A stretch of DNA of 64,000 bases. Origin: an uncultured Opitutia bacterium. GTDB taxonomy: Bacteria; Verrucomicrobiota; Verrucomicrobiia; Opitutales; Opitutaceae. A model generated the notes under the pieces. That model searched no databases, was not told the origin of the DNA, and saw only the letters and a program-made list of their open reading frames with translations. Positions 10,150 to 12,606 of the stretch are shown one piece after another. Where the stretch lies: assembly GCA_903840415.1 (NCBI GenBank), contig CAIMFY010000074.1, forward strand, positions 186,001-250,000, written 5' to 3'. Made by a program: the position numbers and the translations under genes. Each line of letters starts with the position of its first letter. Position 1 is the first letter of the stretch.

Positions 10150-11070
10150 ATGAGCGCCGTCACCACCGCCCCATTCCCAGTCAGGCGCGCCCCGGTGCGC
10201 GCCGTCGGCCCGCGCGTGGTCCGCAACCCCTGGTGGGTGCGAGTGATCTTCATGACGATCGCGCTCAGCTTCGTCGGCTTTTTCCTGCTGCTGCCGCTGG
10301 TGGCGGTGTTTGTCGAAGCGCTGCGCAAAGGCTTCGGCGCCTACTTCCACGCCTTCGCCGATCCGGACGCGCGCAGCGCGATCCGGCTGACCCTGACGGC
10401 CGCGGCGATTGCGGTGCCGGCGAATCTAGTCTTTGGCATCGCGGCGTCGTGGTGCATCGCGAAGTTTAATTTCGCCGGCAAAAGCATCCTCACCACGCTC
10501 ATCGATCTGCCGTTCGCGGTCTCCCCGGTGATCTCCGGCTTGATTTACGTGCTCGTCTTCGGGGCGCAGGGCTGGCTCGGGCCTTACCTCGGAGCCGGCG
10601 ATCACCCGTGGTTGGGCGAGTGGATCAACCAGCACGACATCACGATCATTTTCGCGGTTCCCGGCATCGTGTTGGCGACGATCTTTGTGACTTTTCCGTT
10701 CGTGGCCCGCGAACTCATCCCGCTGATGCAGACGCAGGGCAACGACGAGGAATACGCGGCGCTGACGCTCGGCGCCAACGGCTGGCAGACGTTCTGGCAT
10801 GTGACGTTGCCGAATATCAAGTGGGGTCTCTTCTATGGCGTCATCCTGTGCAACGCCCGCGCCATGGGCGAATTTGGTGCAGTCTCCGTCGTCTCTGGCC
10901 ACATTCGTGGCGAGACCAACACGATGCCGCTGCACATCGAGATACTCTACAACGAATATAACTTTGTCGCCGCCTTTGCGATTTCCTCGCTGCTGGCAAT
11001 GCTGGGCATCGTGACGTTGATTTTGAAGAGCTTCATCGAGTGGCGCCATATGCAGGCGAAGACGAGCTGA
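10150..11070 (+). CDS. cysW: Sulfate ABC transporter permease CysW
   Basis: Second inner-membrane permease of the sulfate importer, 306 residues. Seen: [22 protein letters not shown], the EAA-type loop [21 protein letters not shown], and the CysW-specific [27 protein letters not shown]. The ATG at 10150 lies two bases after the cysT stop. Its own stop codon touches the first inverted repeat of the inserted four-helix-bundle segment, which separates it from cysA by 480 bp. Confidence 0.95.
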
Positions 11071-11109
11071 ACGTCGAACGCCCAACTTCGAACGCCGAAC
11101 ATCGAACGG
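11069..11109. repeat. Left TCGAAC-rich repeat flanking a four-helix-bundle gene
   Basis: A run built of GAACGTCGAACG / CAACTTCGAACG / GAACATCGAACG units. It is an inverted, slightly offset counterpart of the repeat at 11502-11538. The word CGAACATCGAACG occurs here and, reversed, in the right copy. It begins within the last codons of cysW. Confidence 0.75.
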
Positions 11110-11117
11110 AAAATGCC

Positions 11118-11483
11118 ATGAGCGCGGAACGCTACGACCTTGAAGAACGCCTGCTAGAATACGCGGCGAGAATCATCCGATTGGCGGAACAGGTGACACG
11201 TTCGTCGGCAGGGCAGCATGTCGCGCTGCAGATTTTGCGCTCCGGCACCTCACCGCTGCCGAACCACGGGGAAGCGCAAGCCGCGGAATCGAATCGCGAC
11301 TTCGTTCACAAACTAAAAATCTGCCTGAAGGAACTGCGCGAGACGCTGCGTTGGCTGCGCCTCATCCAGCGCGTGCCGCTCGTGAAGAAACCCGAGCGGG
11401 TGGCTTCACTGCTGCAAGAGACGGATGAACTGATCCGCATCTTCGTCACCAGCATCAAGACCGCCCAGAAAAACACCAAGTGA
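11118..11483 (+). CDS. Four-helix-bundle protein (23S rRNA intervening-sequence protein family)
   Basis: A 121-residue all-helical protein starting [20 protein letters not shown]. Seen: the family-typical core [54 protein letters not shown] and a last helix [20 protein letters not shown]. Members of this family occur inside 23S rRNA intervening sequences and as isolated genes scattered in environmental bacteria; they resemble the Avd accessory protein of diversity-generating retroelements in fold. Function is unknown. Here it splits cysW from cysA and is bordered by TCGAAC-rich inverted repeats, so it looks like an inserted module rather than a sulfur gene. It keeps operon orientation. Confidence 0.88.
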
Positions 11484-11501
11484 CGATGCCGCCATCTGTT
11501 C

Positions 11502-11538
11502 AAAGTTCGACGTTGGAAGTTCGACGTTCGATGTTCGC
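11502..11538. repeat. Right TCGAAC-rich repeat flanking a four-helix-bundle gene
   Basis: AAAGTTCGACGTTGGAAG followed by TTCGACGTTCGATGTTCG units, the inverse complement type of the repeat at 11069-11109. It ends 12 bp before the cysA start codon, so it could influence cysA translation. Confidence 0.75.
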
Positions 11539-11550
11539 CCCAGTCATCGC

Positions 11551-12606
11551 ATGAGCATCGCCGTCAAAAATATTCGCAAGACATTCGGGGCGTTCACCGC
11601 CTTGGATGGCGTCGATCTCAATGTGCGCAGTGGCCAGCTCGTGGCTTTGCTGGGTCCGTCGGGCTCCGGCAAGACCACGTTGTTGCGCATCATCGCCGGC
11701 CTCGAATATGCCGATCCGGAAAGTGGACGCATCCAATTTCACGGCGAAGATGTGACCGATGTGCCCGCCGGCAAACGCAAGGTCGGCTTTGTCTTCCAGC
11801 ATTACGCGCTCTTCCGGCACATGACGATTTGTGAAAATATCGCCTTCGGCCTGAAGGTGCGCGGCCGGCGCGAGCGTCCAGCGAAGGACGAAATCGCGGC
11901 GCGCGTCGCGAAATTGCTCAAACTGGTGCAGCTGGATCAGCTCGGCGGACGCTATCAGCATCGACTTTCCGGCGGCCAGCGCCAGCGGATCGCGCTCGCC
12001 CGCGCGCTGGCGGTCGAGCCGAAGGTGCTGCTGCTCGACGAGCCGTTCGGCGCGCTCGACGCCAAGGTGCGCAAGGAGCTGCGCCGCTGGCTCCGCCGAT
12101 TTCAGGATGAGATCAATATCACGACGATCTTTGTCACGCATGACCAGGAGGAGGCGCTCGAGATCGCCGACGAGGTCGTGATCATGAACAACGCGCGAGT
12201 CGAACAAGTGGGCACGCCGCAGGAAGTTTATGACCGGCCGGCGTCGCCTTTTGTCTATCAGTTTCTCGGCAACGTAAACGTGCTCCGGGCCCAATCCTTG
12301 GCGCATGCCGGCGCCCACGCGCCGACGGAAGCCATGCTGGAGGTCGATGGGCAGATCTATGTGCGACCGCACGACATCGAAGTGTTGCCGCATGTGCCGG
12401 GAGCCGCCGGCGTTGTCGCCGTGTTGCGCTACATCCACGCGGCCGGTTCGACCGCGCGCCTTTCGCTGGAACAAGTGTCGACGCGCGAACCCATCGAGGT
12501 GGAAACCACGCGTGTGACACTGGCTGGCCTTGACCTGCAGGTGGGCGACCTCGTGAATTTGCGCCTGCGCCAATCGCGATCCTTCGACGACGACTTCTCC
12601 ATTTAA
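11551..12606 (+). CDS. cysA: Sulfate ABC transporter ATP-binding protein CysA
   Basis: ATPase that energises the CysTW sulfate channel at the cytoplasmic face, 351 residues. Seen: Walker [10 protein letters not shown] near residue 37, Q-loop [13 protein letters not shown], signature [15 protein letters not shown], Walker [12 protein letters not shown], switch histidine FVTHDQEEA, and a C-terminal TOBE-like regulatory domain from about residue 245 (VRPHDIEV). The family length is usual. It restarts after the four-helix-bundle insertion, so expression must pass through the repeats or use its own promoter. Confidence 0.96.

Follow-up and report, generated by a model that had tools for sequence, protein, structure and literature searches.

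Background

Proteins of the PF05635 family have, to our knowledge, no settled function beyond the Avd branch, and we know of no function of the family that would enable movement of DNA. One described setting of such a gene is the intervening sequence (IVS) of the Coxiella burnetii 23S rRNA, which is 428 nt long, has a 28-bp terminal stem with the S23p open reading frame (ORF) in the loop, and has been referred to as a selfish genetic element (PMC4990558). REPINs and their associated RAYT genes are another point of comparison, with two inverted ends, a short and diverse spacer, many non-autonomous copies, and an associated gene that is often long resident at one site (PMC8049555). Finally, the TAACTGA repeats of Beggiatoaceae are intergenic 7-nt direct repeats that often lie before start codons, and consist of one fixed heptamer in 169 direct sets and one indirect set (PMC4679880); the terms intervening, S23 and four helix are absent from the text of that paper.

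Here we report on a module between cysW and cysA in a 64-kb stretch of DNA (the window), in which a predicted four-helix-bundle gene lies between inverted arrays of 7-nt units. With the 23S rRNA IVS (PMC4990558) it has in common a length of about 430-470 nt, a single S23/IVP ORF closed by complementary ends that form a terminal inverted repeat, and a scattered distribution; in contrast to the IVS it is situated in the cysW-cysA gap and not within a 23S rRNA gene, and its family has 7-nt tandem arms, units that track the protein subfamily, and ORF-less relatives. The features listed above for REPINs and RAYTs (PMC8049555) recur here, long residence of the associated gene included, and inverted end pairs of the REPIN type were found in many copies in three relatives (G239, G234 and G391), but not in the window's own genome. 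The associated protein is, however, a PF05635 four-helix bundle instead of a Y1 transposase, the ends are 7-nt arrays, and the ORF-bearing unit itself is present at many junctions. As in DNA transposons and MITEs, ORF-bearing and ORF-less copies share terminal inverted repeats; unlike in these, a target-site duplication was not seen in 19 ORF-less units, where a shifted one could escape. The family resembles the Beggiatoaceae repeats in unit length, intergenic position and frequent placement before start codons, and differs in that its heptamer is not fixed. By analogy, the anatomy of the window module may thus be likened to that of a 23S rRNA IVS set in an mRNA operon and its population structure to that of REPINs and RAYTs, and a REPIN-like population structure is our best reading of the family. 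PF05635 proteins with subfamily-tracking heptamer arrays and ORF-less units were not found in a literature search that covered titles and the starts of abstracts, with few subscription papers and preprints.

Results

The module in the window

The features of the locus are given in Table 1. From the letters of the window, an earlier note had described a four-helix-bundle ORF placed between cysW and cysA and bordered by oppositely oriented TCGAAC-rich repeats. Profile searches bear out the gene assignments: the 121-aa ORF scores 47.6 bits against PF05635 (curated cut-off 33.8) and 84.5 bits against TIGR02436 (curated cut-off 24), with CysW upstream (TIGR02140, 401.3 bits) and a CysA-type ATPase downstream (TIGR00968, 382.4 bits). 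As to the borders, the arms are indeed inverted (33 nt at 82%, 11069-11101 vs 11497-11529, plus a perfect 13 nt), but the right one starts at approximately 11497 and not at 11502, and both go beyond mere TCGAAC words, being 7-nt periodic arrays of GAACGTC-like units (14-nt register, lag 7). Specifically, the left array reads GAACGTC GAACGCC CAACTTC GAACGCC GAACATC GAACG, and the alignment score of the left and right arms is 29, compared to 26 for the 99.9% quantile of cross-locus pairings (110 loci).

Table 1. Positions of the module and its neighbours in the window
Feature	Position	Strand	Description
cysW	10150..11070	+	TGA stop at 11068-11070 overlaps first array unit
Left array	11069..11109	+	about six degenerate 7-nt units, SAACNYC type
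Four-helix-bundle gene	11118..11483	+	121 aa, PF05635/TIGR02436 (23S rRNA IVP / S23 family), Avd-like fold
Right array	11497..11538	-	opposite-strand units of left-array type, TGTTCAAAGTTCGACGTTGGAAGTTCGACGTTCGATGTTCG
cysA	11551..12606	+	start 12 nt past right array

A scan of the 64 kb for lag-7 periodicity at 75%, a threshold below which the left array of the module falls, gave two stretches, the right array and positions 1481-1519. The latter is a solo array of another type (CTCAACT CTCAACA CTCAACT CATTACT CACTACT) directly before the groEL start, where it fills the gap after a 98-aa ORF (1176-1472) that we read as GroES. An inverted partner was not present within 700-1700, and the array is perhaps a relic of an element of another subfamily.

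PF05635 has a single match in the window's own genome. The array pattern, allowing ≤3 mismatches, matches this genome 18 times (7 with the reversed-pattern control), of which 7 are at the window locus; all 6 matches with ≤2 mismatches belong to the locus and the other 11 all have 3. A second array pattern gave 6+4 matches vs 1 in the control. No other strong array copy was found by the pattern search at ≤3 mismatches, and the assembled genome appears to be without sign of recent activity of the element.

The cysW-cysA junction in relatives

In G001, the only genome of the same genus among those searched, the module is absent and the end of cysW runs 4 nt into cysA; PF05635 has no match there. 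We therefore suggest that the module arrived after the congeners parted, or that G001 has lost it. The distance from cysW to cysA was scorable at 24 of 27 cysW loci, the window's among them, with L076 repeating the junction of L061. The gap is 480 nt in the window, where it holds the ORF, and from -4 to 169 nt in the other 23 scored rows (one repeated junction), none of which has a match to the window protein in the gap. These data support the view of a small module with its own ends that was placed between the two genes. The same insertion in all relatives with no copies elsewhere, or repeats confined to this site, had been named as what would speak against a module; neither is the case, since only the window's row of 24 has the ORF and like arrays surround close relatives of the protein at other junctions in other genomes. 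That the neighbours had been left undisturbed needs amending for cysW, which is slightly disturbed because its C-terminal tail differs from that of G001 and its stop overlaps the first array unit.

A few further observations were made at this junction. The cysW tail of G001 has one CAACGTC, which may be chance. In G004 the 57-nt gap (L058) starts TGAACATCGAACCTCGATGACC, resembling two units of the NAACRTY type, which may also be chance; a search of this genome with the window protein gave no hit at E 1e-12. Moreover, G056 (contig C49; L042/L071) carries a different four-helix element beside cysW, oriented opposite to it, which is an independent insertion next to this gene.

The four-helix protein

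The AlphaFold2 model of the window protein is a confident four-helix bundle (pLDDT 93.8). Among solved chains it comes nearest to 2RLD (Z 17.2, rmsd 1.6 over 107) and 2GSC (Z 15.9, rmsd 2.0 over 111), followed by Avd of the diversity-generating retroelements (4DWL, Z 13.4; 8UB7, Z 13.2) and chains of Avd-bearing DGR ribonucleoproteins (Z 13.3-12.6), and the kinship with 23S rRNA IVP and Avd that had been proposed for it thus agrees with the fold. Since an unrelated designed bundle also reaches Z 13.3, the Avd match leans equally on Z and on knowledge of the family (PMC10053308). Unlike for Avd, no reverse transcriptase gene is present beside the window gene, and the fold is nearer to 2RLD and 2GSC. 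Profile searches recognised no catalytic domain in the window protein. Among the basic residues, R11, R41, K65 and K71 are some of those that never or hardly ever vary. The median dN/dS among relatives is 0.09 (294 of 634 pairs used; the pairs are not independent and one locus may enter from two sources), which indicates purifying selection and hence that the protein is maintained.

PF05635 genes lie between locus-specific 7-nt arrays

PF05635 was present in 38 of the 57 genomes searched (own included), with up to 15 copies. We fetched 110 loci from among the matches listed, plus the window's own, and oriented all of them together; 110 of these 111 loci entered the arm analysis (one short flank was left out) and 107 the far-flank control. 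Using as criterion the best 28-nt stretch that repeats at a given lag with ≥75% identity, lag-7 periodicity was found in 36/110 left flanks and 36/110 right flanks, compared to 0/107 far flanks and 0/110 ORF stretches. Lag 14 was seen in 14 left and 13 right flanks and lag 8 in 7 and 6, while each of the other lags from 4 to 15 gave ≤2 flanks; in the far flanks, lags 12 and 14 each occurred once.

The unit varies with the locus (GAGTCAG, TTGAAAG, GGCTGTG, GTAGCGA as in the subfamily at gyrB-gyrA, and others), and the arms of one locus match each other: the mean score of the left arm against the reverse complement of its own right arm is 20.1, vs 10.1 against other loci, and among 110 candidate partners the own right arm scores highest in 52 loci and does not in 58. 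Arms that match within an element, though units differ between elements, suggest that something acts on their pairing or on the equality of the two ends. At a shared junction both arms of one element were seen in examples to switch unit together (L023 vs L029, L080, L085 and L097). A comparison of arms within and between elements at shared sites gave 48/55 pairs; this number serves as illustration only, being biased in that segments were picked by their own best alignment (arm score ≥15, arms ≤75 nt).

There are 22 groups with a shared site, where many copies occupy one junction across several genera, which argues for long residence rather than frequent movement. Gene direction was scorable on both flanks in 90 of 135 loci, and in 88 of these the two neighbours run the same way as the ORF; the scoring requires a like flanking gene elsewhere, so shared sites weigh heavily and the loci are not independent. 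This orientation suggests that the element ORF is probably expressed from the host operon. Two loci deviate from the simple layout: in L170 (G105, contig C46) the ORF-bearing element is apparently flanked on both sides by short ORF-less inverted-array pairs, and in L169 the left array is doubled.

The unit follows the protein subfamily

For pairwise comparison we used 135 loci, after dropping five duplicates and one short flank, and kept pairs with a common flanking gene apart. For two loci at different sites, the mean repeat similarity rises with that of the proteins, from 9.2 (n=4660) at score ratios <0.15 to 14.1 (n=179) at 0.55-0.70 and 23.5 (n=26) at ≥0.70, and the Mantel correlation between repeat and protein similarity is 0.354, a value as high in 0/1000 permutations. 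As judged from these alignments, the 7-nt unit tracks the protein subfamily and not the insertion site.

The subfamily of the window protein is represented by 16 fetched relatives (60-73% identity) at other junctions in other genomes, namely accD-folC (L158-L161, L164), leuB-alaS (L162, L163, L165-L167, L169) and further junctions for the rest; the gene names were identified for L160 and L162, and those of the other members of each group follow from like flanking sequence. By eye, a NAACRTY-type array is present on the left in 16/16 and on the right in 15/16, L173 being without a right array within 150 nt. The ORF with its two arrays thus occupies operon junctions that differ from genome to genome, and G001 is without it at the junction where the window has it.

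We extended this to 80 named loci (57-76% identity), the best 80 of 217 relatives. The array was found on the left in 66, on the right in 58 and on both sides in 52, in the opposite orientation in 4 left and 11 right flanks, and in 1/72 and 1/71 far-flank controls. The record titles name Desulfobacterales, other former Deltaproteobacteria, Verrucomicrobia, Lentisphaerae, Kiritimatiellae, Planctomycetes, Chlamydiota and Thermodesulfovibrionia, such that the unit of the window subfamily is retained across records titled with seven phyla; most are metagenome bins, of which single titles may be wrong, and one record (CP120722.1, Kiritimatiellota) is labelled a complete genome.

ORF-less units in array-rich genomes

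Several genomes are rich in matches to the array pattern, counted with overlapping registers separately: G239 (73+72, 145 in total), G234 (39+35, 74), G084 (48+53, 101), G216 (32+53, 85) and G076 (28+25, 53), with 0-1 matches in the reversed-pattern controls. A slightly stricter pattern gave 140+112 (252) in G391 and 0 in its control. Counts near the control were obtained for G388 (21 vs 23), G210 (16 vs 14) and G275 (22 vs 14), despite a close relative of the protein in each. Conversely, G005 has 41 matches to a GTAGYGR array and no match to PF05635, which contradicts a strict dependence of the arrays on the four-helix gene.

Among 40 fetched regions of G239 and G234 there are 19 paired ORF-less units of 66-188 nt, 18 of which have GAAC..GTTC ends, a form that the search expression favours. 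An abutting direct repeat of 2-9 nt was found in 0/19, with unit ends set by that same search expression. Twenty fetched regions of G391 contain 13 paired ORF-less units of up to 221 nt with common spacers that in some cases occur in both orientations; identity reaches 94% for the best pair (mean 66%), while the 100-nt left flanks reach ≤59%. ORF-less units with these arrays are thus scattered over several genomes in which a protein of the cognate subfamily is encoded as well, and in G391 such units at unrelated sites have near-identical spacers. Outside the arrays, several ORF-less units of G391 (L427-L440) are enclosed by AAAAGAT ... ATCTTTT, either as an extension of the inverted repeat or as the mark of a preferred target.

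The flanks of twelve G239 units were searched in the congener G234, and seven of the units were aligned. At two of the seven sites (L258 vs L287, L257 vs L290) the unit is missing in G234, and the gap holds about four AATTAGT-like 7-nt units in one case and a 15-nt tandem repeat in the other; among 140 control stretches, each 60 nt long, none attains 80% at lag 7. Since both carry another short tandem array, we rejected them as clean empty sites: either an earlier, different unit was present there or the unit changed in place, which lowers the likelihood of an element that has moved and raises that of stationary modules (see below). Of the remaining five aligned sites, L248 and L255 are occupied in both genomes with diverged arrays, L252 and L254 have partial or decayed arrays, and L249 is unclear in the alignment. 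Besides these seven, L250 is apparently occupied in both genomes as judged by match coordinates.

Discussion

Taken together, the data very probably reflect a family of elements with cognate repeats that has moved. The 470-base interval in the window is, on balance, best regarded as one copy of a compact element, mobile or formerly mobile, that consists of the four-helix gene and its cognate arrays. That the four-helix protein is the factor which acts on the arrays for mobility is plausible, although we stop just short of calling it probable. In the mechanism that we propose, a four-helix gene, putatively without a promoter of its own, would be closed by inverted 7-nt arrays and would obtain free transcription from its sense-direction position in operon gaps. 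The cognate protein would recognise the arrays, in DNA or in a hairpin of either strand, and the cutting or copying chemistry might come from another enzyme, of the host or otherwise. Excision, insertion or a jump in progress was not seen in the compared genomes.

One alternative is that a Y1/HUH transposase of the RAYT type or a reverse transcriptase mobilises the units in trans, with the four-helix protein as cargo, regulator or accessory. The unit architecture is REPIN-like, Avd is itself an accessory of reverse transcriptase (DGR ribonucleoprotein structures are among the fold matches), and Y1_Tnp matches are numerous in array-rich genomes (G239 13, G234 6, G084 17, G216 35, G076 15), compared to 0-8 in most searched members of the window's family (0 in G018 and in G000, the window's own genome). 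Y1 numbers are, however, confounded by phylogeny (G105 has 50 Y1 matches and 12 array matches), and PF01797 has no match in G000, so that a Y1 transposase is doubtful as obligate partner. A reverse transcriptase in that role is unsupported: RVT_1 has no match in the copy-bearing genomes G002, G085, G275 and G255, and its sole match in G000, on contig C118 and not on the window's contig C74, has an internal stop. Moreover, the unit tracks the four-helix protein, and we consider movement in trans unlikely. One Y1 gene of G234 (C39:88462) is situated approximately 1.4 kb from an array.

Quite unlikely, in our judgement, is that the module acts at the RNA level as an intervening sequence, the arms of which pair in the transcript and are cut in the stem by RNase III or a similar enzyme; it would then be a neutral passenger of the mRNA and the protein no mobility factor. 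The anatomy is that of the Coxiella IVS as described in PMC4990558, and paired as RNA the window arms form strong duplexes (sense -44.9, antisense -52.2 kcal/mol). The RNA-based module that had been suggested for this locus is also left open by the co-directional placement (88/90 loci, many of which share sites and are not independent), but it is unsupported by the mismatches within the arms. Were an RNA stem under selection on the sense strand, G.U mismatches should outnumber those of A.C, which is not seen: GT and AC numbered 92 vs 118 (p 0.08 in the other direction) in the 72 of 110 loci with arm score ≥17, and 144 vs 139 (p 0.81) in 64 of the 80 named loci. The lack of a G.U excess favours recognition of the arrays by the cognate protein, with the chemistry left to another enzyme. 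Units that track the protein and dispersed ORF-less units are, in addition, unexplained by an RNA-level passenger.

Stationary modules, in which the arrays are binding sites for autoregulation or operon regulation, spread mostly vertically and turn over in place, would fit the many sites common to several genera, the other short tandem array at both G234 sites that are without the G239 unit, and the solo array just before groEL in the window, but are very unlikely given the array-less cysW-cysA junction of G001, the near-identical ORF-less units at unrelated sites of one genome, and a single protein subfamily at accD-folC, leuB-alaS, cysW-cysA and other junctions.

Returning to the mobile element with its cognate arrays, our data give the PF05635 family a likely nucleic-acid partner that can be read from sequence, and since each protein lies between its own arrays, the binding specificity is directly testable by swapping proteins and arrays. 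Should movement depend on an action of the protein at the arrays, the family would represent mobility in which no known transposase takes part; this would inform the question of how an Avd-like fold was recruited to reverse transcriptases, and would account for many heptamer arrays in operon gaps. There is a fair chance that a new kind of mobility system is involved. The widest form of this proposal, that of a new class of mobile DNA in which Avd-like proteins without a recognised catalytic domain each recognise a 7-nt array code of their own and bring about or permit the copying of segments that arrays enclose, with REPIN-like populations and a lock-and-key co-evolution of protein and heptamer across several phyla, is offered tentatively, as possible rather than probable.

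Finally, genes for PDDEXK_3 (GxxExxY, PF13366) proteins of relatives (L187-L216) are also bordered by inverted, locus-matched repeats, in this case of the ACCACGAA/ACACGAAT type and without 7-nt periodicity. In the 27 of 30 loci used for the arm test the own score is 21.6 vs 10.3, and the own partner is the best in 15/27. This family appears to use the same layout with other repeats, and the layout may be general. As read from the sequence, some of the PDDEXK_3 loci apparently share junctions with four-helix elements, at the starts of gatB and alaS.
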